The translations under genes and the position numbers were made by a program. Positions 29,127 through 42,090 of a stretch of 58,784 nt of DNA are shown one piece after another. The notes below the pieces were generated by a model. It made no database searches, was not told the origin of the DNA, and saw only the letters and a program-made list of their open reading frames with translations. Source of the stretch: an uncultured Gammaproteobacteria bacterium. Lineage in GTDB: Bacteria; Pseudomonadota; Gammaproteobacteria; Steroidobacterales; Woeseiaceae. The DNA is taken from contig CALBPI010000086.1 of assembly GCA_937899415.1 (NCBI GenBank), positions 1 to 58,784 of the forward strand, read 5' to 3'. Positions within the stretch are counted from its first letter, which is position 1, and every line of letters starts with the position of its first letter.

Positions 29127-31508
29127 TCAGTACAGGAACACCGCGCCGGCGTCCTCGCCGTCCTCGTTCTGGGCGCCGTTGACACCTGTTGCCGTGCCGG
29201 CCTCACCGCGCACGCCGGCCGCGATCATCGTGCCGTCGTCCGTCATGGCAATGGCGCTGCCGAGCTGCTCGGGCTGCGCCGCGTCGGTCGGTGCCGACAG
29301 GTTGCGGTCGTAGTCCCAACCGCTCGCGGATTCTCGGAATACCGCCAGCGCGCCTTTGAAGATAGCGACGTTACCTGTGGCCTCCAGTGAGCCCTCGTTG
29401 ACCTTCGTGGCATCGATGACGGTTGGCTTCGAGGACGCCGATGCCCGGCGGCGCGGCGCACCCATGGCGAACACCTGGCCATCAGCGCTTAACGCGATCG
29501 AGGAGCCGTAGTACTCGTTCGACTTTTGCAGGGGCTCCTTGAACATCGCAATCGACTGCCAGCCCGAACCCGGATTTTCGAAGAGATAGCCTGCGCCGGT
29601 TCGGAACATCGAGTCATCGGCGGGACCCAGGGTCGGGTTGCTGCCCTCCCAGACAGCACTTGTGGCCAGACGTGTGCCGTCTTCGGAGAAGGTCACGTCG
29701 TAGCCAAACAGGTCATTGTTCCCCGCGTTGGGTGCCTTCACGTAGGCTTGCTGTTGCCAGCTGCCGGCACCTGCGTCTTCGAACAGGTAGACGGCGCCCA
29801 CGTTGAAGCTGTCGTTGCCGTCCGCGCCATTGATGACGTTTGACGCACTGTCTTCCTGTGGTGCCCCAACGGCAATGCGCGTGCCGTCGTCAGTGATCGC
29901 AACACTGAATCCGAAAATATCCCCGGCATCGCCATTCGACGGCGACAGCGTGTCTTCGAGCAGCCAGTTGCCCGTCTGCTGTGAGAACACATAGGCGTTG
30001 CCGGAACTCGGCGATGCCGATGAGGCACCGATTACGACGTGCGAGCCGTCACCCGAGATGGCTACGGACTTACCGAAGACATCATTGGGATTGCCGGCCG
30101 ACGACTTGAGGTAGGCCTGTTGCGTCCAGATCGCACCGGATCGTACGAAGACGTAGGCCGCGCCGGAGTCGGTCATACCGTTGTCGAGCGCGTTGCCGTT
30201 GACGCCGGTAGCGCCGCTGTCCTCTAGATCAGCGCCTACCACCAGTGTGTTGCCGTCGGTACTGAGTGCCACGGCATTGCCGAACCGGTCACCGCCATCG
30301 ATTGTCGTGGGCTTCAGGTAGGCCTGTTGCTGCCAGTCGAGACCGACGCGCTCGAAAATGTACACCGCGCCCGCGCTGGTCTGGCTGTTGTCGAGCGGAT
30401 CGCTCGAAAGCTGCGACGATTCCCCGATGGCACCAACAGCCATCGTCGAGCCGTCGGCACTTAGGGCGATACTCCAGCCGAACGCATCAAAGTCATCGGT
30501 GTTGCCGGCTTTGAAGTAGCCGATGATCGCGGCAGGGTCCAGGTTGCCGTCGAGCGGCAGGGGCGCTGATGTGGCCAGCGTATTGTCGCTGCCATCGCGA
30601 CCTTCGACGCGCAGCACACCGTTGCTGAGGTCTGCCGACACAAGCGACAGCGGGGCAGCCGCAGTATTGCTCGCGACGCCGGTCACGAGGTCGACGGCGG
30701 GCGATCCCGTATCGTCAGCATAGGTGACCGCGAAGCTATCAAACGTCGACGGCGCCTCGACGGCATTCCAGTTGATCACGACCGACACGGGATCGGCCCC
30801 CGGGCCGACGGCCAGACCGTCGATCGCGAACGCGATGTCATCGACCGTTACGGCGACCGCAACGGGCGCACTCGTGATGCTGCCGTCGTCGGCGACGATA
30901 TCGATGACGTAGACGTTGTCACCGTCCGCATCGTTCGGCGACTCAAAGTCGGGCGCACTCGAGAACGACAACGCGCCCGAGGGTGTGATCGCAAAAAACG
31001 CCGCGTCGGCACCGCCTGCGATGTCGAACGTCAGCGCATCGTTCTCGGGGTCCGTGCCCTGCGCCTGATACACGACCGCGGTCGCGTTTTCGTCCACACT
31101 CGCCTGCGTGGCCGAGGTGACCGAAGGCGCTTCGTTGACGTCGCTGACAGAGACGATGACCGTCTGCGTGTCGGTGGCGCCGGGCACGTCGCTGACTTCG
31201 ATGACAACCTCATAGCTGTTATCGAGACCGGCATCGGCGGGCACCTCGAAGTCGGGCGACGTGACGAATTGCAGGTTGCCCGAGTCCGCCAGCGTGAATG
31301 CGCCGGCGTCAGCGCCGCCCGAAATCCGGTACGACAACGGGCCGCCGTTCGGGTCCTGCGCGCGGGCGACGAACACGTCGCCGGTCGTGTTTTCGTCGAC
31401 AGGCACGCTCACCATGGCCGACGCGAATGCAGGCGGTTGGTTGCCGCTGCCGCTATCACAGCCCGCGAGCGCGACAACGCCCAGGGCTACTACGAATTGA
31501 ATCCTCAT
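29127..31508 (-). CDS. Lipoprotein with cadherin-like and FG-GAP/integrin-like repeats
   Basis: This 793-residue protein has a lipobox at C17 (VVALAGC). Residues of about 25-225 hold two cadherin-like repeats (VPVDENTTG ... DPNGGPLSYRISGG, and SVDENATAVVYQAQGTDPEN). A Fn3-like stretch follows to about 330. The rest is roughly seven repeats of the type FGWSIALSADGSTMAVGA, an integrin-alpha-like FG-GAP propeller. Calcium binding and adhesion are likely. GGGAGC is upstream of the ATG at 31508. It follows the diheme protein gene on the same strand. Confidence 0.87.
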   Translation of the reverse strand: MRIQFVVALGVVALAGCDSGSGNQPPAFASAMVSVPVDENTTGDVFVARAQDPNGGPLSYRISGGADAGAFTLADSGNLQFVTSPDFEVPADAGLDNSYEVVIEVSDVPGATDTQTVIVSVSDVNEAPSVTSATQASVDENATAVVYQAQGTDPENDALTFDIAGGADAAFFAITPSGALSFSSAPDFESPNDADGDNVYVIDIVADDGSITSAPVAVAVTVDDIAFAIDGLAVGPGADPVSVVINWNAVEAPSTFDSFAVTYADDTGSPAVDLVTGVASNTAAAPLSLVSADLSNGVLRVEGRDGSDNTLATSAPLPLDGNLDPAAIIGYFKAGNTDDFDAFGWSIALSADGSTMAVGAIGESSQLSSDPLDNSQTSAGAVYIFERVGLDWQQQAYLKPTTIDGGDRFGNAVALSTDGNTLVVGADLEDSGATGVNGNALDNGMTDSGAAYVFVRSGAIWTQQAYLKSSAGNPNDVFGKSVAISGDGSHVVIGASSASPSSGNAYVFSQQTGNWLLEDTLSPSNGDAGDIFGFSVAITDDGTRIAVGAPQEDSASNVINGADGNDSFNVGAVYLFEDAGAGSWQQQAYVKAPNAGNNDLFGYDVTFSEDGTRLATSAVWEGSNPTLGPADDSMFRTGAGYLFENPGSGWQSIAMFKEPLQKSNEYYGSSIALSADGQVFAMGAPRRRASASSKPTVIDATKVNEGSLEATGNVAIFKGALAVFRESASGWDYDRNLSAPTDAAQPEQLGSAIAMTDDGTMIAAGVRGEAGTATGVNGAQNEDGEDAGAVFLY

Positions 31509-31600
31509 TGTTCTGCTCCCATGCGAGATTAACTGCGGCGCGAATTGCATCGCAGCGACTCGGGGGACAGGCACCACCAATTCTTGCGGGATTCAAAGAA

Positions 31601-31620
31601 ACTGTGATGGGACGCACAGT
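31601..31620. promoter_or_regulatory. Possible CRP/Vfr-like site
   Basis: The motif ACTGTG-N8-CACAGT includes TGTGA-N6-GCACA, one base off the CRP core TGTGA-N6-TCACA. It lies 93 bases upstream of the FG-GAP lipoprotein start. The gap 31509-31714 holds nothing else recognisable. No CRP gene is seen, so this rests on motif match alone. Confidence 0.25.
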
Positions 31621-31714
31621 CGACCTACGATCGCGCTGTGACGCAGCGCGCGTTTCAAAGGTCTCGGAGCGCTGGCTACAGCCGCCGACGCAGGATGCGC
31701 CGGGCACAGTTGCG

Positions 31715-33316
31715 CTAATGCATGGCGTGCGTGTGCGCTTCGGGTTCTGCAGTGAGTGCTTTCAGGAATGCGACGAGCTGCGCCGCTTCGTCATCGGTGA
31801 TGTCGAGCCGGAATAGGTCGTCGCTGCCGTCTTCGGCCGGTGCCGCGGCTCGGTAATGTGCAACCACTGCCTCCAGCGACGCAAATCGCCCGTCGTGCAT
31901 ATAGGGCGCAGTGACCCCGAGCCCGCGGAGGCTCGGCACCTTGAACGCACCGACGGGCGGATGACCCGAATCGGCGAAGCGGTGGTGACTGCAGGCGTCG
32001 CGATCTGCATCGCTATACTCGCCCAGGCAATTGAAGGGATCGTGCTGCGCGGCACGGATGCCAATGGCGCGACCAAAATCGAGCTGCCCCTCTGTGTCGG
32101 TCGCCGTGCCGATGTTGTGGAAGCCATAGCTTGTGAGCGTGCTGCCGTTGTGGCATCGCAGACACTTGCTGCGGGGCTCGTCGAGAAACAGCTTGAGACC
32201 AGCGCGTGCGTCGTCGTCGAGCAAACTGGCGGCATGCGCGTCGTGTCCAGCTGCAAGTGCCGTTGTGAACGCGTCAAAACGTGTTGGCTGGTGCTCAAGT
32301 GTGGCGACGAATGCAGCCAGCGACTTGCCGACATCGCTGAACACGTTGTCGATGTCGCGTCGTTGCACGGGCGACAGACGTTGCCAGTCAGCACGCGCGG
32401 CACCGTCACCGAAAGGCCCGCCGTGGTCTGGCCAACGCCCCGCATTGGGCAATGAGTCCTCGGCGATGCGGTCATAGCGTTGCCGGTAGTCCGGGTCGGT
32501 CAGCACGAGCTTCGCCACAGCGCTGCGTGTATTGTCCATCTCGCCACGCGTCTCGATGGGGGTCAGCGTCTGCGCCCAGAGGCTGTCGCGCCGACCATCC
32601 CAGTAAAACCAGTCGGCATGCACAGCACCCAGTAGTGACGGTGAGTTGCGTTTGAGCGGTTGCGAGCCATGGCTGAGCTTGCGACCGTCGGTGAAGCCCA
32701 GGGCGGCGACATGGCAGGTGGCGCAGGCAATTTCACCCGTGGCGCTCAGGCGCGGATCGAAAAACAGCGCGCGACCCAGCATGATGGCATCGGTGTTACC
32801 GATGAGCCGGTTGCCCGTATCTCTTGGCTGACGCGGCTTGATCGCCAGCGTCTGCATGCGGGCGATCTCATCGGCACTGAAGCCAAGCCGATCGGTGCCC
32901 GTTGGTGCGCCGGCGCCGACCGCGATTTCAAAACGCGCCTTGTCGGGACCAGCCGGCCCTGTCACGCCAACAAACAGCTCCCACTTTCCGGCCATGTTGA
33001 AGCGCATGCCGGACACACGGTAACGGCCGGGCTCAAGACGCTCTGTGATCTCGGGCGAAGATGGCAGCCCGTGGCCGTGGCCGGGCATCCCCCCAAACAC
33101 GGCAAGCTGGCGCGGCTCCAACGGCTTGCCGTCCGCCGTCTCAACGCGCAGCTCCCAGTCGTGAAATGCGTTGATCGGCACGGGCGCCTCGAGCGGCGTG
33201 AGCTGCACGCGATAGAACCCGTCCGCAGACGTGGCGGACAGGGGCTCCGCCGCCGGCGCCGCCGCATACGCGAGCAACGCCAGCGTCGTAACCAGACGAC
33301 GCGCCCGACGATGCAC
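31715..33316 (-). CDS. Secreted diheme peroxidase-like protein with N-terminal FixH/YtkA-like domain
   Basis: This 533-residue protein joins two parts. Residues of about 32-132 resemble FixH/YtkA (DWELRVETADGKPL, a histidine-rich GGMPGHGHGLP, GKWELFVGVTGP). The rest is a MauG/CcpA-type diheme protein with heme motifs CATCH (198-202) and CLRCH, ALFFDPRLS, and an APYMHDGRFASLE loop. MauG-type enzymes oxidise protein residues or reduce peroxide. The start is uncertain: GTG at 33316 gives a standard signal peptide (VHRRARRLVTTLALLAYAAA), while an ATG at 33385 would overlap the giant gene by 65 bases. It lies directly downstream of the copper oxidase/cytochrome protein and could be its maturation or electron partner. 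Confidence 0.88.
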   Translation of the reverse strand: MHRRARRLVTTLALLAYAAAPAAEPLSATSADGFYRVQLTPLEAPVPINAFHDWELRVETADGKPLEPRQLAVFGGMPGHGHGLPSSPEITERLEPGRYRVSGMRFNMAGKWELFVGVTGPAGPDKARFEIAVGAGAPTGTDRLGFSADEIARMQTLAIKPRQPRDTGNRLIGNTDAIMLGRALFFDPRLSATGEIACATCHVAALGFTDGRKLSHGSQPLKRNSPSLLGAVHADWFYWDGRRDSLWAQTLTPIETRGEMDNTRSAVAKLVLTDPDYRQRYDRIAEDSLPNAGRWPDHGGPFGDGAARADWQRLSPVQRRDIDNVFSDVGKSLAAFVATLEHQPTRFDAFTTALAAGHDAHAASLLDDDARAGLKLFLDEPRSKCLRCHNGSTLTSYGFHNIGTATDTEGQLDFGRAIGIRAAQHDPFNCLGEYSDADRDACSHHRFADSGHPPVGAFKVPSLRGLGVTAPYMHDGRFASLEAVVAHYRAAAPAEDGSDDLFRLDITDDEAAQLVAFLKALTAEPEAHTHAMH

Positions 33317-33320
33317 CGCG

Positions 33321-36300
33321 CTATTGCTCGAACAGCCGGATTCGACCGAAGGTGGAGTTGTTGCCTGAGCCTGAGTCATGGTCATTGATCAGCACCAGGT
33401 ACATGCTGTTTCCGGTGTAGTACTGGCCGATGGGGATCTGGTAGACCACCGTGCCACTGCCCGGGTAGTTGTCGTAGGTGCCATTGCCATAGTTCTGCGT
33501 CCCGTACACACGCATGAGCGAGCCCGATGCGTGCGTGTTGTCGGCATCGAACCCAATCGCGTGGATCTCGCCCTGGTTCGTCGACGAGAACTCGAACTCG
33601 ATCACCGTGTTCGGCGTAATCGTGTAGGTCGTCGTCGAGCGCTTCCAGGTGTTGTTCTCGAGCCGTACAGCCAGGCCACCGTCGAGCAGGGTCTGCGTGC
33701 CAACAATGTCCTGGTTGGAGTAAGACACGAGACCAATGGCTGACAAATCGATGCAATCCGAACAGTCATCGGCCTCGCGGATCGTCCAGACGAAATTGGC
33801 CGTGTCGCTGCCTCCGGCGCCGTCACTCACGCTGACGCTGGCGTTGAAGTCACCCAGTTGCGTCGGCGTGCCCGTCACCAGACCGGTGGTGCTGATCGAC
33901 AAGCCCGGCGGCAGCCCCGTGGCTGCGAAAGTCAGCGGATCATTGTTGAGGTCGCTGGCCGCGATCTGCAGTGACAGCGGCGCACCGATATCGCTGAGTT
34001 GCGTACCCGGTGAGGTGATCATGGGCGCGAGGTTGCCGCCTTCGACGATACGCACGTTGCGGAACGCTGAGGTGTTGCCGCTACCCGCATCGTTGTCGTT
34101 GACCACGACCAGCGTCATGCCCGTACCCGTGTAGTACTGACCCACGGGGATCTGCATGCTCACGTAGTCGCTGCCCGAGTACGAGTTGAACCCGGCGATA
34201 CCCCAGTTCTGCGTGCCATGGACGCGGAAGATACGGTTGCTCGAGAGGTTGTTGTCCTCGTCGAAGCCAATGCCGTGGATCTCGCCTTGCTGCGTGCTCT
34301 TGAACTCGAACTCGATCACCGTGCTTGGCGTGACATCGAAGGTCTCAAGCGTGCGCTTCCAGGTGTTGTCGGTCATCTCGATGGCGCTGCCGCCTTCGGT
34401 AATGGCGTAGGTGCCGACAATGTCCTGGTTCGAGTACGACGCAATCGTCAGCGCCGAAAAGTCGAGGCAGTCCGTGCAACCGTCAGGGTCATCGGGCGTG
34501 AGCTGCGCCGTGACACCGTCGAGCTCGAGCAGATAGCTCGAGAGCTGGAAGACCTCGCCGGCGGTCAGCGAAATTCCCTGGTGCGCCTCAATGGCCTCAC
34601 TGACATCGACGGCCGCACCGTCATGCAGGTAAGGCGCCGTATTCCAGAGACTGATGAGCGTCGGCGTGTCGATGCCCGTCAAGGGCCCGCCAAGACGCTG
34701 GCCGCTCGAAGGCTTGAGCGTCCCAACGTCGTTGAGGTTGCCGTTGTTGCTATCCGTGAACGTCGGCGGCGCATGGCAGCTCGCACAGCCTTTGTCCGTG
34801 AACAGCACCATGCCGGCCTCGCCGTCGCTCGTGAGTGAGCCATCGGCGTTGCGGTAGGGGCTGTCTGCAAAACTGTCGAGCGAAGCCAGGTAGGCGGCCA
34901 TGTCGTCAAGATCGACGCTGAGCCCCGCCTTGGGATCACCCAGCGGCTGTGAACGCGTACCAGTGAAGTAGTCAGCGTCGCTCATGAGGCCCGTGCCGCC
35001 CGCGAAGTCGCGGATCTGCGCTTCGAAATCCTGTACCTCGTCGAAGTTGGCACTCCAGTGCAGGAAGCCGTGCACGACCGCCGCGCGGCCCTCGAGCGTG
35101 ATCGTGTTACGCAGGCCTTCGCCAAGACCGGTGAAGTCCCAAACGCGGCCGTCCTGGCCGCCGTCGTTGTGGCACGACGCACAACTCATGTAGGAGTCGA
35201 GCGCAAGACGCGGGTCACGGGAGTCGTAGAACAGCTGCTTGCCGTTCAGGATGTTCGGCGCCAACGTCTCCGACTGCACGGTCGAGACATCGCCCAGTGG
35301 CGTGATCTCAAGCTCGTTGGCGCCCGTGAGCGCCGCGATGTCGTAAACACTGACACTTCTGTCCATGAAGTTGTCGACGTAAAGCCGCGTGCCGTCGGCC
35401 GACAGCGCGACGCCCTGCGGTGCGCGACCGGCGTCAAAGCGCAGGAGCTCCGTCGCCGTGTAGGCATCACTGACAACCACTTCGCGGTTGCCCTCGAGTG
35501 TTGTGAACAGGTAGATGCCGTAAGGCCCGAAAGCGGCGCTGCTGGCCACGCTCGCGTTGTCGTGGTCGATGCGTGCCCAGAACGCCTCTGCGCCCGTCAC
35601 GAGATCGATCTTCGAGGTCACCGCGCGAACGGTCTGGTCGAAGGTCATGCCCTGGCCGCCACGCAGCGCGCCCGCGAGGATGTTGTCCTGCTTGGACGGC
35701 ACCCAGGCACCCGTGCCATCGGGCGACACCACGGCGGGCCCGAGGTAGTTGGGCACACCGGGACCCGAGTGCTCGGAGACGTTGCGGTCGCTGTGCTGCA
35801 GCACGGCCACGTTGGTCTGCTGCATCGACACGGCGTCCAGGGCGAGCACCTGGCCACCGTACTGCACGCCGCCTGACTCGACGACGGGCGCAGCCGTCGC
35901 CTCGTTGGGCAGCAGCGGTGTCACGAACATCGATACAAGTAGCTGATCGCTTGCGGGGTCGACGGACAGGTGCCGCGGCGTCCCACCGACGAAAGTCGTG
36001 TCGGTCACGCTGCCTGACGCGAGGTCAAGTCGTACGATCTGGCTTGTGCCTTCAAGCGCCACGAAGGCGGTGCCCAGCATCTCGTGAATGACGATGCCGT
36101 AAGGTTGCGAGGCGTGCGGCAGCGTGTAGGTGCCGGTGACGCTCTGCGCAGCCGGATCGATACGACTCACGCTGGCATCCCGACGGTTCACGACCCAGAC
36201 GAAGTTGTCGGGTGCGACCGCAAGCGCGACAGGCTGGTCACCCACTGCGACCTCGCCCGTAAGCGTGTTGGTCACCGTGTCGATGACGGCCACAGTGTCG

Positions 36301-39300
36301 TTGTCAGGATTCACGACCCAGGCCTGGTTAAGTGAATCGATGACCGCGATGCTGCCCGAGGCCTGCGCCATGGTGCTCGTCAGGGGTGCGTGGATGAGCT
36401 GCACGAAGGTCTGCGTGAGTTCTTCGTTGGACACGGGGTCTAGCACGGTCACCGTGACGACGTAGCGGCCGGGCGTCGTGTAGTTGTGCTGGACCTGCGA
36501 CTGACTTACGAAGCCTGTCTCGGGCGAGCCGTCGCCAAAGTTCCAGTTGTAGAACAGGGGGCCGTTGCCGTTGGCCGTCACTTCGAAAACGGCATCGCCG
36601 CTAACAACGACGGGGCTCGGGTTGATCGCATCAACCGTCAGCGGCACCTGACCGGCGACGCCCAACGCGAGGTAGGCCACCTGCTCAGTGATGTGCACGC
36701 GCTCGGCGTCATTGATCTGGTCTTCTTCGTAGACGATGCCAATCGTGCCCGAGGCAACGGGGTTCGCGCCGTAGAGCACAGGCCAGCCGCCGTTGCCACC
36801 ATCCATGGCCGCCGCGCTCAGCACAGCCACCGTAGCGTCGATGGGTGTTGAGTAGTTGTAAGGCGGCGCGTTGTCGACGCCCTCGACGATGTCGGCGCCC
36901 AGCGCGGCCGCGTACTCGAGGCCCCCGATGTCGCCACTGCCAGCCTCCATGATGAGGTAGCCGATTTGCTCAGCGCTGCGGGTGTTTTGCGGGTCTTCGG
37001 CGACATGCAAGCCGACCGCAACGCTGCTCGCGTTCGGCGGGTTCTGCTGGCTGCCATCCGATGCCCAGAACACGCTGAAGCGATCGTCATTCGCTGTCAT
37101 GACCTGACCCAGCACGACGGGATTCGTGTAGGTCTGCACGTAGCCGTGAGGCTCGGGAGTCCAGGAAGCGTCATGGTCGGCCGTCGCGATTGTGCGGACA
37201 CCGGCCTCGAACTGCACGCCGTTGCCCGAATAGGTGCCGGCCTCCAGGGCCACGTAATGCACGTCGACGGGGCCCGTTGCGGCGAGATCACCGGGGTTCT
37301 GGACGCGCAGCTCGAAGCTGTCGGGTCCTACATTGCGCACGCGCGTGACAACAGGCACGCCGCCGGGCGCGAGGCGCGGTGTCGCGATGATCACAGCGTC
37401 GCTGTACGTCGTCGGCAGGGTGACCGTCTGCCAGGTCTCCGTGACCCCCGCGACGATGGCGCCGTTGAGTTGGGCGTCCTCGGGCGCCATCGCGGTCGTG
37501 ATCGGCGAGGTCGAGAGATAAGCGCCCGGAATCACGGCGGGGCCGGGTATGCCCGGCCCCTGCCAGGCAACAGCCAGGTTGTCACCACCGCCGCCCTCTT
37601 TCATGAGCGCTTCCACGTAGTAACTCTGCCCGGCCTCGAGCGGGATCACCACGGATTGTTGTTCGGGGAACTTGTTCCACTGCCGCGGCGAGGCCCAGCC
37701 CGGCACGCTCGCAACGAGCTGCCTGTTGGCAGGATTCTCGTCGGTACTGAGCCAGAGTTCGCCGCCGTCATCGGTGGCGATCCAGAAGGTGTAGTCACCG
37801 CTCGTGTTGGGCACGAGGTAGCCGTGCACGCGCGTGCCGTAGTTATCCAGGATGTTCGTCGGTGTTTCGAACTGCGCGATGATGTCTGTGCCTGTGGGGC
37901 TGTTGGGGTAGTTCGCGTTGCCCGTCAGGTTGGCCACCGCCGTGCCGTTGATACCCGTCCACCAGTCGCGGCGAATGCCGCCCAAACCTTCGCCGAAGAC
38001 GAGCCACTCGAAGCTCTTGCTGCGCGAGCCCTCGTCGTTGTCGGTCACAGTCACCGTGACGTTGTAAGTGCCATTGTTCGTGGCGGCACCGCTAATGAGA
38101 CCGGTCGCCGAGTCGATTGAGATGCCCTCCGGCAGGTTGACGGCGCTGTAGCTCAGCGGGTCGTCATCGGCATCACCGGCGACCACCTGCACCGAAACAG
38201 GCTCGCCCTGCTGCGAGGACTGCTGCGGCAGCGCATTCATCCAGGGCATACCGCTCGTATTGGCTTGCACGATGTGCGCTTCAGACGGCACACCGTTCGC
38301 ATCGAGTGCGAACAACATCCAGTAGCCGGACGTGAGTACGTTGGGGTTGATGTGCGCCGTCAGGTCGTAGATTCCCGGCGACGCCGTGGCGAAGTCGACC
38401 TCGATGAAGCGCACGTCGGTGTTCATGCCGTGCGTGGTCGAGCTCATTTTGACCATCGTGAAACGGTCGACGTCCGTGCTGGCCGTGACCTGGAAGGTCT
38501 CGCCCGAAGACACCCGCGGTGGTGCGGCATCGATGTTCGGGCGCGCAGCCAGACTGCCGCTGCCATCGAACAGATACGACGGCGAGTAGACTTCACCGTC
38601 CTTGTGGCTCGAGCCGTTGCAAAAGGCGTTTCCCGAGCAGTAACCGCCACCGGCTGCCAGTACACGGCCGTCTTTGAGCAGCAGCGCAATGGAGTGGTAG
38701 TTGCGCGCGGTCGCCATTGACGCACCCAGACGCCACTCGCCGGTCTCCGGGTTCCAGATTTCGGTCGCGAGGATGGCGCCGTTGTCGCTGAATTTCTGAC
38801 CCGAGGTGTTGCCACCAATAACAAGGACTTCGCCCGTGGGCAGCACGACGCCGTTGTGGAACTTGCGCGCGTGCGTCATCGACTGCGTCGCCGCGACGAC
38901 AGGCGTCGGCTGGTTCAGGTCGATCGTGAATGCCTGGTTGGTGCTCGTCGTGTTGTTGCCCGCGATCCAGCCGCCCGCCGTCAGGATCTTGCCCTCGGCA
39001 TACATGATCGAGGTGCCGTGCTTGTGGTACCAGGCCGTGAACTCGGCGCCCACCTGCTCAAAGCTGCCGTTACCCGTCGGGTCGATGTAATGCATCTTGG
39101 GCGTGGGGCCCGAGTGAAAGATCTGACCGTTGGGCGCCACGTGCAGGATGGGCCACCAGCGGCTCTCGCCGTGGGTGCCCGAAGAGAAGTAGTCGTCGAG
39201 CACCATCGGGTTGAAGTCGATGCCGTTCTTGATCTGCCAGCCGTCATCGACGTTCCAGACCTCGGGGTAGCGCTGCAGCGAGGCCGTACCGATGGCCGTG

Positions 39301-39773
39301 AAAATGTCGCCCTCGGCCGTTGCAATCGTGGTCGGGTACCAGCGGCCGCCCGACGGCATGTTCTCGATCTGAACCCATGCGTCGTCACGGAAGTCGAAGA
39401 TCGAGGTCCAGGGGCTGTTGGTCTGGTTGCGCCCGCCGTTGACGAAAACGCGGCCGTCTTCAAGCATCGCGAGATGCGCACAAAACATATTGTGCGTCGG
39501 GTGGAAGATCTCCTCGAAGATGTTGTTCGTGGGGTCCCAGGTTGCACTGTAAGTCTGTTCCGTGGTCGGCCACGTCTCACGCTCCGAGCCGGACCAGGTC
39601 AGGATGCGACCGTCGGGCAGGTTCGCTGCGGAAACGGCAATGTGCGGCCACTCGATCACCGCACCCCACTGGCCACCCTCCCAGGGGTCGTCGGGCGCGC
39701 CTGCGGCGGACACACTCAGGAAGAGCGCTGAAGCAAAAAGGATCCCGGACCGGACTCGATCACTCGCACGCAT
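33321..39773 (-). CDS. Giant secreted galactose-oxidase-like copper radical oxidase fused to a diheme cytochrome and binding domains
   Basis: This 2150-residue protein has a signal peptide (1-25). Domains in order: galactose/glyoxal oxidase kelch propeller plus DUF1929 cap (26-505); He_PIG/cadherin-like (515-590); PA14 (600-752); a lectin-like stretch (765-1040); PKD (1050-1128); YVTN beta-propeller (1140-1490); two-heme c module (CASCH at 1531 and 1663); then a C-terminal domain present twice (1766-1912 and 2005-2150) around another He_PIG. All copper radical ligand positions of galactose oxidase are kept: C98, Y146, Y359-H360 and H448. It should oxidise an alcohol or aldehyde outside the cell; the hemes may take electrons onward. 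The ATG at 39773 begins the signal peptide; an in-frame reading further upstream lacks one. Confidence 0.93.
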   Translation of the reverse strand: MRASDRVRSGILFASALFLSVSAAGAPDDPWEGGQWGAVIEWPHIAVSAANLPDGRILTWSGSERETWPTTEQTYSATWDPTNNIFEEIFHPTHNMFCAHLAMLEDGRVFVNGGRNQTNSPWTSIFDFRDDAWVQIENMPSGGRWYPTTIATAEGDIFTAIGTASLQRYPEVWNVDDGWQIKNGIDFNPMVLDDYFSSGTHGESRWWPILHVAPNGQIFHSGPTPKMHYIDPTGNGSFEQVGAEFTAWYHKHGTSIMYAEGKILTAGGWIAGNNTTSTNQAFTIDLNQPTPVVAATQSMTHARKFHNGVVLPTGEVLVIGGNTSGQKFSDNGAILATEIWNPETGEWRLGASMATARNYHSIALLLKDGRVLAAGGGYCSGNAFCNGSSHKDGEVYSPSYLFDGSGSLAARPNIDAAPPRVSSGETFQVTASTDVDRFTMVKMSSTTHGMNTDVRFIEVDFATASPGIYDLTAHINPNVLTSGYWMLFALDANGVPSEAHIVQANTSGMPWMNALPQQSSQQGEPVSVQVVAGDADDDPLSYSAVNLPEGISIDSATGLISGAATNNGTYNVTVTVTDNDEGSRSKSFEWLVFGEGLGGIRRDWWTGINGTAVANLTGNANYPNSPTGTDIIAQFETPTNILDNYGTRVHGYLVPNTSGDYTFWIATDDGGELWLSTDENPANRQLVASVPGWASPRQWNKFPEQQSVVIPLEAGQSYYVEALMKEGGGGDNLAVAWQGPGIPGPAVIPGAYLSTSPITTAMAPEDAQLNGAIVAGVTETWQTVTLPTTYSDAVIIATPRLAPGGVPVVTRVRNVGPDSFELRVQNPGDLAATGPVDVHYVALEAGTYSGNGVQFEAGVRTIATADHDASWTPEPHGYVQTYTNPVVLGQVMTANDDRFSVFWASDGSQQNPPNASSVAVGLHVAEDPQNTRSAEQIGYLIMEAGSGDIGGLEYAAALGADIVEGVDNAPPYNYSTPIDATVAVLSAAAMDGGNGGWPVLYGANPVASGTIGIVYEEDQINDAERVHITEQVAYLALGVAGQVPLTVDAINPSPVVVSGDAVFEVTANGNGPLFYNWNFGDGSPETGFVSQSQVQHNYTTPGRYVVTVTVLDPVSNEELTQTFVQLIHAPLTSTMAQASGSIAVIDSLNQAWVVNPDNDTVAVIDTVTNTLTGEVAVGDQPVALAVAPDNFVWVVNRRDASVSRIDPAAQSVTGTYTLPHASQPYGIVIHEMLGTAFVALEGTSQIVRLDLASGSVTDTTFVGGTPRHLSVDPASDQLLVSMFVTPLLPNEATAAPVVESGGVQYGGQVLALDAVSMQQTNVAVLQHSDRNVSEHSGPGVPNYLGPAVVSPDGTGAWVPSKQDNILAGALRGGQGMTFDQTVRAVTSKIDLVTGAEAFWARIDHDNASVASSAAFGPYGIYLFTTLEGNREVVVSDAYTATELLRFDAGRAPQGVALSADGTRLYVDNFMDRSVSVYDIAALTGANELEITPLGDVSTVQSETLAPNILNGKQLFYDSRDPRLALDSYMSCASCHNDGGQDGRVWDFTGLGEGLRNTITLEGRAAVVHGFLHWSANFDEVQDFEAQIRDFAGGTGLMSDADYFTGTRSQPLGDPKAGLSVDLDDMAAYLASLDSFADSPYRNADGSLTSDGEAGMVLFTDKGCASCHAPPTFTDSNNGNLNDVGTLKPSSGQRLGGPLTGIDTPTLISLWNTAPYLHDGAAVDVSEAIEAHQGISLTAGEVFQLSSYLLELDGVTAQLTPDDPDGCTDCLDFSALTIASYSNQDIVGTYAITEGGSAIEMTDNTWKRTLETFDVTPSTVIEFEFKSTQQGEIHGIGFDEDNNLSSNRIFRVHGTQNWGIAGFNSYSGSDYVSMQIPVGQYYTGTGMTLVVVNDNDAGSGNTSAFRNVRIVEGGNLAPMITSPGTQLSDIGAPLSLQIAASDLNNDPLTFAATGLPPGLSISTTGLVTGTPTQLGDFNASVSVSDGAGGSDTANFVWTIREADDCSDCIDLSAIGLVSYSNQDIVGTQTLLDGGLAVRLENNTWKRSTTTYTITPNTVIEFEFSSTNQGEIHAIGFDADNTHASGSLMRVYGTQNYGNGTYDNYPGSGTVVYQIPIGQYYTGNSMYLVLINDHDSGSGNNSTFGRIRLFEQ

Positions 39774-40069
39774 CTCTGACACCTCGCAATTCCGAGGGCC
39801 GGCGGATGCCATGCGTTTCGACGGCGACAGCAACACTATCGACGTCACGCCAGGCTTCCCCTTCCCCGGCGTATGAGACGACTTCTCGTCTGTTTTTCTT
39901 AGTTTTTCGGCGTAGTCGCCACGCTGCCGTGGCGGTCGTTCACGAGAGGTAATGCAAGCCGCGTACCGGTTCGACAAGCCGTCGACATTTCAGCGGCTTG
40001 AGCGCGATACGAGTTTACCGAGGGGCGCAATGTGTCAAGGATGCCGACAGTCGTGCCGGCGCGCCGGGC
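39774..40069. other. Intergenic region upstream of the giant oxidase gene
   Basis: These 296 bases lie between two minus-strand genes. They must hold the promoter for the giant oxidase gene. A 12-bp GC palindrome, CCGGCGCGCCGG at 40056-40067, comes directly after the stop of the upstream gene and may form a hairpin without a T-run. No small gene or RNA is supported. Confidence 0.5.
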
Positions 40070-41536
40070 TCACCGCACGACGGCGTTGAAGGTCAGCGTG
40101 AACGAGGGCGAACCGGAGCCGCCGTTGGCATTCATGGCGCCTGTGAGTTCGATCCGGACGCCTGTCACGCTGGCATCAACACCGGTGCCATCCGGTGTTG
40201 GTGTGTAGTCGAAAGGCGCGCCACCACCAGGCTGGTTGCTGAACCTGGCATTGGCCGGGTTCAGACTCACACCGCTGGCCACGGCACCATCGGCAAACAC
40301 GACGGTGGGCGCGGGCGTGATGCGCAATGCCACATCGTCGGGCACCACGTCGGTGATGATCAGCGAACCGGCGTCGACGATGCCGGCGCCCTCATTCGCG
40401 ACGGTGATTGTATAGGCGACTTCGGCGCCTGGAATATCGTAGGGGTCCGTGGCGCCGTTGACGGGATCGGTCAGCGTCGTGACGACCTTGCTGACGCGCA
40501 GATCAGGCAGCGACTGCGTATCGAGACACACATCGTCGGCGTGCCAGAAGTCGAATGTCGGACCCGAGCCGTCAAGCTGGCGCAGACGAATCCGGAATCC
40601 CGTGTGGCGGGCATTGGCAGGCATCGGGTAGCTGCGCAGGAACACCTCACCGGGCGTACCGCTGCCCGCGAATTGCTCGAGCAGGACCCAGCTGCCGCCG
40701 TCGTCGAGGTACTCCACCAGAAAGTCCTCAACGCCGTCGGGGTTCTCGCTGAACGCATCCGCGCCGCGACGAATCCAGAGCGAGAGCGCCGAGAACGCAG
40801 GGTTCGTCGTGTCGATGAGATTGGAGATCACATCGACGGGGTCGCCGTTCGTAAACAGGCTCGCAGACGGAGACTGGAAGGTCGCCGCACTCGTGCCCGC
40901 GCTGCCACCGCCTGAGTTGATGGTCCAGTTGGTGGACAAGCCGCTCGAGAAGTCGTCACAAGTGCCAACAGCCAGTGTGCTGCCGGCGGCGCGCTCCACC
41001 ACGCGGACATCGTCAATGTGAAAGTAGTCAAAATCGACGCCCGACCCACCAACCTGGCGTAGCCGCAGCGCGACGGAGCCGTGCAATGCGTCAGGTGGCA
41101 GAAGCAGGCTGTCATTGAAGACCTGGCCTGGGGTGCCGGCACCCGAGTAGGTTCGCAACGCGCCCCAGGTGCCGTCGGTGCGGCGAAACTCGAGCAGCAG
41201 GTCTTCGCCGCCGTCGGGGTCTTCACTGAAGGCATCGCTGCCGCGGCGCACCCAGATCGCGAGTTCCGCCGCAGGAACAGCTGCGTTGAATGCGGGGCTC
41301 TGCGCCTCGACGGGCCCGTGACGCGTGAACAGTCCGGTATTGCCCGAGTTCGAAACGGCGCCGCCCGTCGCGAGGCCGGCGCGGGTCGCGTTGTTCGTGG
41401 TCCAGGGGGCGAGCGTGGCGCGCTCGAAGTTATCCGTGAACAGCACATCGCCAGGCGCCGCCAATGCGGCGCCCGGGAACAGGGCGGCCAACGCGATCAG
41501 TGCGCGCCGCCGGGTCTGGCGCTTCAGTCCGGCCAT
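40070..41536 (-). CDS. Secreted protein with two MAM/reelin-like repeats and a DUF11-like domain
   Basis: This 488-residue protein has a signal peptide (ALIALAALFPGAALA). Two homologous domains follow, about 28-180 and 185-340, sharing WVRRGSDAFSEDPDGGEDLL versus WIRRGADAFSENPDGVEDFL, and GVDFDYFHIDDV versus GPTFDFWHADDV. The last part (LRVSKVVTTLTDPVNGATDP ... VAYTITVANEG) is DUF11-like. Such domains bind surfaces or sugars and have no catalytic motif. It precedes the giant oxidase gene on the same strand after 296 bases and may be a companion surface protein. Confidence 0.82.
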   Translation of the reverse strand: MAGLKRQTRRRALIALAALFPGAALAAPGDVLFTDNFERATLAPWTTNNATRAGLATGGAVSNSGNTGLFTRHGPVEAQSPAFNAAVPAAELAIWVRRGSDAFSEDPDGGEDLLLEFRRTDGTWGALRTYSGAGTPGQVFNDSLLLPPDALHGSVALRLRQVGGSGVDFDYFHIDDVRVVERAAGSTLAVGTCDDFSSGLSTNWTINSGGGSAGTSAATFQSPSASLFTNGDPVDVISNLIDTTNPAFSALSLWIRRGADAFSENPDGVEDFLVEYLDDGGSWVLLEQFAGSGTPGEVFLRSYPMPANARHTGFRIRLRQLDGSGPTFDFWHADDVCLDTQSLPDLRVSKVVTTLTDPVNGATDPYDIPGAEVAYTITVANEGAGIVDAGSLIITDVVPDDVALRITPAPTVVFADGAVASGVSLNPANARFSNQPGGGAPFDYTPTPDGTGVDASVTGVRIELTGAMNANGGSGSPSFTLTFNAVVR

Positions 41537-41631
41537 GCTTCATTGCGTTACCAGGATGACGCCATGTTATGTCGCGCGGACAACTAAGGTGTTGAACGGG
41601 CTCACACTTTCGGGCACTGCCCGGGCGGGCT

Positions 41632-42090
41632 TCAGGCCCCGGGTGTGGCGGCGGCAGCGCGCCGAAACAGCCAGCCGGAGACCAGCCAAAGCAGCGCGAA
41701 AAATGCTGTCAGCACGATCACATCGCGCGGCCAGGAATTGCCCTCAGTGCCCAGCTTGCCCGCCAGCGCAATGACGCCAACGGCGATCTGCGCGGCGGCG
41801 GCCGCGAATACGACACGCGACATGCCCGCGGGCTGCAGGCGAACCACGGCGGCGCCAATGACTAGGCAGGCAATTACCCCCGCGTACATCAGATTCGCGT
41901 CATTGTTCTCGCTGCCGATGATGCCCACGGCGCCGTTGATCCAGGCGAGCAAAAACGCCGCCAGAACAGCGATGGCGGCCGCGAACCGGTAGCTCGCGTT
42001 GGGTGAGCGGCGAAAGGCTAGCGTGATGCCGCCCGCGACAGCGGTCAGCAGTCCTGCTGCGACGCCGTAGTCGGCTGAATCCCAGGTCAT
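41632..42090 (-). CDS. Small polytopic membrane protein
   Basis: This 152-residue protein has four or five hydrophobic helices, among them VIACLVIGAAVVRLQ and VFAAAAAQIAVGVIALAG. No family was recognised. GGGAGGGG seven bases before the ATG at 42090 supports translation. It sits 48 bases after the Lrp regulator gene on the same strand, so it may be co-transcribed with it. Confidence 0.7.
   Translation of the reverse strand: MTWDSADYGVAAGLLTAVAGGITLAFRRSPNASYRFAAAIAVLAAFLLAWINGAVGIIGSENNDANLMYAGVIACLVIGAAVVRLQPAGMSRVVFAAAAAQIAVGVIALAGKLGTEGNSWPRDVIVLTAFFALLWLVSGWLFRRAAAATPGA

Follow-up and report, generated by a model that had tools for sequence, protein, structure and literature searches.

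Recurrent fusion of a galactose-oxidase-type copper radical oxidase with a hydrazine-synthase-like propeller and diheme module in bacteria

Galactose-oxidase-type copper enzymes normally make hydrogen peroxide (H2O2). Copper radical oxidases (CROs) depend on an oxidant to enter and to keep the active radical state, and the natural supplier of that oxidant is known in few cases. One is fungal: the available text of PMC9770985 describes how the peroxidase CorPerox activates CorAlcOx through one-electron oxidation. For Streptomyces, the accessible part of PMC4736821 reports that maturation and cross-linking of GlxA at low copper require Sco together with the heme peroxidase DtpA, that DtpA consumes the H2O2 made by GlxA, and that sco genes co-occur with Gox genes in some Burkholderia. 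Homologues of hydrazine synthase beta-gamma are described, in the text available from PMC12758564, as highly prevalent among environmental bacteria. Here, a stretch of 58,784 nucleotides from an uncultured gammaproteobacterium of the Woeseiaceae (contig CALBPI010000086.1 of assembly GCA_937899415.1; below, the window) was analysed for a gene in which a CRO and a diheme cytochrome share one polypeptide. The coordinates 33321-39773 given in an initial annotation of the DNA were correct, and the strand, which had been left out, is the minus strand: the frame runs from an ATG at 39773 to a TAG at 33323-33321 and encodes 2150 residues with zero internal stops. From the N terminus, the protein comprises a signal-like stretch, the CRO, a He_PIG domain, a PA14 domain, an unmatched region, a PKD domain, a YVTN propeller, the diheme domain, a repeat, a second He_PIG domain and a further repeat (Table 1).

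The copper radical oxidase and the propeller-diheme module

A galactose-oxidase-type CRO occupies residues 26-506 and has the complete ligand set of two Tyr, two His and the cross-linking Cys; a Tyr-Cys bond, radical chemistry and H2O2 production are predicted for it. A phmmer search aligned residues 26-503 to galactose oxidase (best match 9g8h, E 8.9e-86), and both PF09118 (69.8 bits) and PF13964 exceeded their cut-offs, which indicates a kelch propeller with an E-set domain. PF07250 (Glyoxal_oxid_N) reached 30.7 bits at a cut-off of 37.5, and the score for the GlxA equivalog NF052501 (160.6 bits) lies far below its cut-off of 800. The five copper ligands proposed in the initial annotation are borne out, since they fall within the galactose oxidase alignment and are conserved in relatives. 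Among 76 aligned rows, and wherever the position is covered, C98 is found in 72/72, Y146 in 74/74 and Y359, H360 and H448 in 76/76; the rows with gaps at copper ligands (L049, L064, L065 and L088) stem from open reading frames (ORFs) that begin at a contig end. A model of the relative L098, covering 1,189 residues from the CRO to the diheme domain, was obtained with a pLDDT of 87.9 and a pTM of 0.75. Its CRO part, which is 51% identical to that of the window, superposes on PsGalOx with 1.7 Å over 455 residues (Z 54.5), so that the objection that the copper ligands might not be placed together fails. GalOx Trp290 aligns to Ala164 in the window; the position is variable in the family, with Trp in 13 of 74 covering rows.

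For the propeller, PF21783 and NF052340 matched below their cut-offs, and the corresponding part of the L098 model retrieved 1l0q_A (Z 36.4) and 5c2v_B (Z 35.5). The two hemes had initially been assigned to the propeller itself. This placement was rejected, as the PF03150 match and the fold search locate both hemes in a separate domain behind it: residues 1492-1760 are a diheme domain of the CCP/MauG/hydrazine-synthase-gamma type, C-terminal of the propeller. With two CxxCH motifs and 31.1 bits for PF03150 (cut-off 25.6), the domain belongs to the CCP_MauG superfamily, and its profile alignments include cytochrome c peroxidase (CCP), hydrazine synthase gamma and MauG. The domain was modelled with an overall pLDDT of 77.5. 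Foldseek placed hydrazine synthase gamma first for this model (E 3.7e-9, rmsd 10.4 Å over 337 columns), followed by CCP and MauG; VIA-align gave Z 15.6 for hydrazine synthase gamma (3.8 Å, 224 residues) and Z 13.5-14.4 for CCP, MbnH and MauG.

Heme 2 is predicted to be bis-His because an axial His is aligned and conserved at H1731, and heme 1 is predicted to be open. The profile alignment pairs H1731 with a Met of CCP 3o5c, the axial ligand of that enzyme, and, when the register is continued without gaps, with residue 294 of MauG. The axial His of the second heme is present in 75/76 rows (L094 is the exception), but these rows had been chosen for two CxxCH motifs and the motif P[YFW][LMF]H[DEHS]G, so that the counts of these motifs among them are not independent; for the axial His, a less selected alignment gave 74/75 covering rows. 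The family has His at the position where bacterial CCP has an axial Met and MauG an axial Tyr; this His makes bis-Fe(IV) chemistry like that of MauG less likely for the fused domain. Heme 2 is likened to heme gamma-II of hydrazine synthase, its bis-His counterpart in the part of PMC12607021 that was available. A third Cys bound to heme 1 is a hydrazine synthase gamma feature according to the available text of PMC12758564. No further Cys occurs in residues 1492-1760, for which reason a hydrazine-synthase function was rejected, and the beta-gamma model NF052342 scored 52.2 bits at a cut-off of 1250.

Variants of the heme motifs were seen at three related loci. L099 (6535-11121) has CGTNCH (CxxxCH) as its second heme motif and retains the axial His after PYLHDG, L094 (3-7227) has a tandem pair of ORFs that both bear the module and two CxxCH motifs, the second of them without the axial His, and L108 (6731-14434, Rivibacter) carries four CxxCH motifs in the fusion ORF, perhaps two diheme modules. 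Another contig of the window's genome holds one HZS_alpha-domain ORF, of 907 residues (G000:C4:16121-16345).

Recurrence of the fusion

A genome collection of 84,980 species was scanned for the propeller-diheme module and yielded at least 562 relatives, the best 80 of which were examined. The CRO is encoded in the same ORF as the module in 75/80, and the ORFs of the other five (L045, L074, L093, L097 and L113) begin at a contig end; at L076 the frame is interrupted within the module. Most of the 75 fused relatives are from proteobacteria and several are from Verrucomicrobiota, while the occurrences in Planctomycetota (L076) and Chloroflexi (L092) each come from one metagenome-assembled genome. 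Isolates are represented, including Leucothrix pacifica, Steroidobacter agaridevorans and Parvibium lacunae, and the one-contig genome G102 contains a fused frame of 2510 residues. The presence of two redox centres in one chain, as described in the initial annotation, is supported, and the arrangement is found in many bacteria. Judged by its sequences, the fusion is a conserved family and not chance, because both ligand sets are conserved across scores of relatives.

The 76-row alignment omits L023 and, for want of clear bounds, the six loci L030, L042, L056, L076, L077 and L080. Alignment A3 omits 7/82 loci, namely L023 (same record as L052) and L099, L108, L061, L030, L076 and L080, where the number of CxxCH motifs differed or the motif was not found. 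A tree of the CRO part was computed from 71 fused and 18 solo rows; besides the rows dropped from the 76-row alignment it omits L052, L064, L065, L049, L088, L094, L096, L108, L140, L118 and L145. The fused or solo label needs four changes on this tree, at least three of them forced by well-supported branches, and the fusion is present on two CRO branches. Rows L128 and L147 of the solo set represent the same gene, and the frame of L141 fills its contig, which leaves its solo status uncertain. In an even class sample of 369 genomes, with a module threshold of E 1e-20 or better, PF09118 was found at 21 places in 13 genomes and the module at 7 places in 5 genomes; both parts stand in one frame at four places, which are the window, G102 and two in G247.

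An oxidase-peroxidase reading and its alternatives

The copper and heme centres probably work together. As to how, we give about an even chance to a self-contained extracytoplasmic oxidase-peroxidase, in which H2O2 made by the CRO goes to the diheme domain. Copper loading of the CRO would be aided by neighbouring SCO1, YtkA or MbnP-type proteins. The CRO would then oxidise an aldehyde or a primary alcohol, which may belong to a glycan that the binding domains retain. The H2O2 formed would be taken up at heme 1, with heme 2 acting as an electron relay. In this way the diheme domain may remove peroxide, or generate or renew the tyrosyl radical of the CRO by one-electron oxidation, or both, and the single chain would keep the two activities together outside the cytoplasm. 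The protein is probably exported, as residues 1-26 form a hydrophobic, signal-like stretch when read by eye. The internal cycle is favoured because a CRO, a heme peroxidase-type protein and a copper chaperone recur here, the first two of them fused. A His-axial diheme can still be a peroxidase, since in the available text of PMC6405878 the axial Tyr-to-His exchange in BthA removed the bis-Fe(IV) feature and kept H2O2 reduction. Of the two mechanisms considered in the initial annotation, an oxidase that feeds peroxide to a heme centre has precedents in the accessible parts of PMC9770985 and PMC4736821; the other, an electron outlet other than O2, is taken up below as an alternative.

Several observations weigh against an oxidase-peroxidase. 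The diheme model is weak in its heme-1 half, with pLDDT values mostly of 45-72 (residues 31-100). A conserved His-Trp pair (1572-1573, 76/76) occupies the apparent place of the peroxidase Gln of CCP and MauG, and this Gln is seemingly lost. Within the class sample, 17 of the 21 PF09118 places lack the module. Locus L028 (3937-7974) combines FG-GAP repeats (PF13517) with the propeller-diheme module and has no CRO, and modules without a PF09118 match are also found in G313 and G408. With CROs alone and modules alone, neither part therefore generally requires the other. The identities of the CRO and of the module are weakly correlated (Spearman 0.29 over 69 rows; 0/500 permutations as high), and because of this weak correlation a swapping of parts is possible; our own reading is an old pairing with some swapping. 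For neighbour counts, 82 fusion loci (81 relatives and the window) were used: neither a SCO1 gene nor a MauG/MbnH-type diheme gene stands beside the fusion in 52/82, and in 29 of these 52 each flank extends for at least 1.2 kb. As far as the available text of PMC4736821 goes, DtpA gave no boost of GlxA turnover in vitro over horseradish peroxidase, no strong contact was seen between the two proteins, and copper alone rescued GlxA maturation without DtpA.

The best surviving alternative, which we nevertheless consider unlikely, is that substrate electrons leave the copper via the hemes to a cytochrome, an extracellular or another acceptor instead of O2. Both centres lie within one chain and are conserved, which speaks for such an outlet. 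The spacer between CRO and propeller, however, varies about sixfold, from about 100 residues in L098 to about 640 (633 in the window; apparent spacers below about 100 residues, of 35-75 and 61, are boundary faults from stray profile hits and were not counted), which is odd for a fixed wire. This variation is easier to reconcile with a flexible or diffusible connection than with rigid wiring and is still compatible with folding back. The CRO part, moreover, retains the galactose oxidase fold and ligands. If true, the protein would be a copper-radical dehydrogenase and not an oxidase, and would pass electrons from alcohol oxidation to a cytochrome chain or to an acceptor outside the cell in place of O2.

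The cofactor of fungal galactose oxidase forms with copper and O2 alone, which counts against a second, rather doubtful alternative, namely that the diheme domain assists in building the Tyr-Cys cofactor, or in loading by oxidising Cu(I), and is then idle in turnover. Such a maturation aid would be in keeping with the copper-linked neighbours, which are SCO1 in 16/82 loci and a MauG/MbnH-type diheme gene in 14/82, three of the latter with MbnP, and with the need for Sco and DtpA in GlxA cross-linking at low copper (PMC4736821, available text). The axial Tyr of MauG is, however, a His here, and the exchanges MauG Y294H and BthA Y463H lose bis-Fe(IV) according to the accessible part of PMC6405878; a Tyr-bearing diheme protein encoded next door is the better candidate for this role.

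It is quite improbable that the copper and heme parts are separate catalysts that share a secreted scaffold and exchange nothing. Modules without a CRO as at L028, CROs that stand alone, the many accessory domains of the chain and the weak identity correlation speak for this reading, but the pairing is found in 75/80 of the best module relatives and on two CRO branches, and the copper ligands are unbroken. The window comes from a draft genome of 102 contigs, but the joining of two genes by a frameshift or misassembly, which the initial annotation had named as a possible refutation, has a negligible probability and is excluded because 75/80 relatives, among them isolates and the one-contig G102, are fused and the other five ORFs run off their contigs.

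Accessory domains, neighbouring genes and comparison with known systems

The PA14, PKD and repeated binding-type domains that the initial annotation had listed are supported by Pfam matches, with He_PIG found twice (the second, near 1915-2003, was placed by similarity matches), and by the C-terminal repeats 1768-1911 and 2005-2150, which are 56% identical over 144 residues. Residues 770-1037 had no Pfam match, and their PDB matches (E 0.25 at best) were at chance level. A promoter scan of 31500-41700 found zero, with 1.3 expected from shuffled sequence, a difference that is uninformative.

Table 1. Features of the fusion gene and its downstream neighbour in the window.
Feature	Coordinates	Strand	Basis
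CRO-propeller-diheme fusion gene	33321..39773	-	single open frame, 2150 aa
CRO domain, residues 26-506; ligands C98, Y146, Y359, H360, H448	38256..39698	-	phmmer, PF09118, ligand conservation, L098 fold
He_PIG Ig-like domain, residues 515-592	37998..38231	-	PF05345
PA14 domain, residues 638-746	37536..37862	-	PF07691 28.3 bits, cut-off 24
Unmatched region, residues ~770-1037	36663..37466	-	tblastn: similar regions in G013, G023
PKD domain, residues 1052-1122, directly N-terminal of propeller	36408..36620	-	PF00801 54.1 bits
YVTN/YncE-like beta-propeller, residues ~1126-1491, hydrazine-synthase-beta-like	35301..36398	-	TIGR02276 over cut-off
Diheme domain, residues ~1492-1760: CASCH 1531-1535 (heme 1), CASCH 1663-1667 (heme 2), predicted axial H1731	34494..35300	-	PF03150, profile alignments, model and fold search
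C-terminal repeat 1768-1911, He_PIG-like 1915-2003, repeat 2005-2150	33324..34472	-	profile and similarity matches
Downstream YtkA-like and MauG/MbnH-type diheme gene, 533 aa	31715..33316	-	PF13115, PF03150 over cut-off

The likely GTG start of the downstream diheme gene lies 4 nt past the fusion stop, and its longest frame begins at 33385. Its TIGR03791 and TIGR04039 matches are below cut-off, and Tyr is found at its second-heme axial position in 10/10 rows of alignment A4. Apart from the fusion, this gene is the sole CCP_MauG match of the window's genome, which has one SCO1 elsewhere, plus CcmE. Across the 82 loci, the SCO1 genes are on the same strand as the fusion and within about 1.1 kb of it in 16/16 cases, and the MauG/MbnH-type diheme gene is convergent to the fusion in L050; the two neighbours occur together in 0/82 loci and either one in 30/82. 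A scan of five of the 16 SCO1 proteins gave PF02630 matches in 5/5. At the SCO1 locus L052 a PF06537-family diheme gene lies about 2 kb off and is divergent. YtkA in or beside the diheme gene was scanned at seven loci, with PF13115 over its cut-off in the window, L026, L037, L059 and L140 and below it in L022 and L050; L140, which is outside the 82, is a one-contig genome in which YtkA and diheme genes adjoin the 2510-residue frame. An MbnP domain over cut-off within the diheme neighbour protein was found in L063, L078 and L104, all Verrucomicrobiota; the frame of L063 ends inside the diheme part. The solo CRO L009, nearer the second CRO branch, has an adjoining SCO1 gene, and six solo-CRO loci with flanks (L142-L147) showed no SCO1 or diheme neighbour with one query for each.

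At L024 (3-7166, G015), outside the 16 SCO1 loci, the fusion ORF continues in frame into SCO1 (PF02630, 125.6 bits), which has a signal-like stretch of its own. Seven loci have, immediately downstream of the fusion, a small gene that looks lipoprotein-like by eye: L043 (8023-8382), L044, L048, L049, L051, L053 and L054.

Among the hits listed in searches of the open-licence PMC literature, none described a CRO-cytochrome fusion, in line with the initial annotation, which knew of no characterised enzyme of this layout. With the CRO and the diheme domain in one polypeptide in many bacteria, their coupling can be tested in a single purified protein, and oxidase-peroxidase fusions for use in biocatalysis could be sought among these natural proteins. 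Fungal galactose oxidase and PsGalOx (PDB 9g8h/9g43) share the fold and the five copper ligands with the CRO of the window but have no heme, and the Trp of GalOx corresponds to Ala164 in the window. The fungal AlcOx-Perox pair likewise joins a CRO to a heme peroxidase partner, but as two proteins and with a peroxidase that is not a c-type diheme (available text of PMC9770985). Streptomyces GlxA, DtpA and Sco correspond in kind to a bacterial CRO, a heme peroxidase and SCO1; in the accessible account of that system (PMC4736821), however, the genes are separate and the peroxidase is a DyP enzyme, and the CRO of the window lies under the GlxA equivalog cut-off. The Burkholderia AA5-CE3 alcohol oxidase, in the part of its description that was available, is also a bacterial CRO fusion, but its partner is an inactive esterase domain and not a cytochrome. 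MauG, MbnH and bacterial CCP have the diheme fold in common with the window, which differs in its axial His at heme 2 in place of Tyr or Met. Hydrazine synthase beta-gamma (PDB 5c2v; available text of PMC12758564) has the same order of propeller and diheme domain and provides the nearest solved diheme fold and one of the nearest propeller folds, whereas the diheme domain of the window lacks the third heme-binding Cys, is far under the NF052342 cut-off and is joined to a CRO. Each part is of a known kind, and the union of a hydrazine-synthase-beta-gamma-like module with a CRO is what appears to be new, judged by the literature hits listed.

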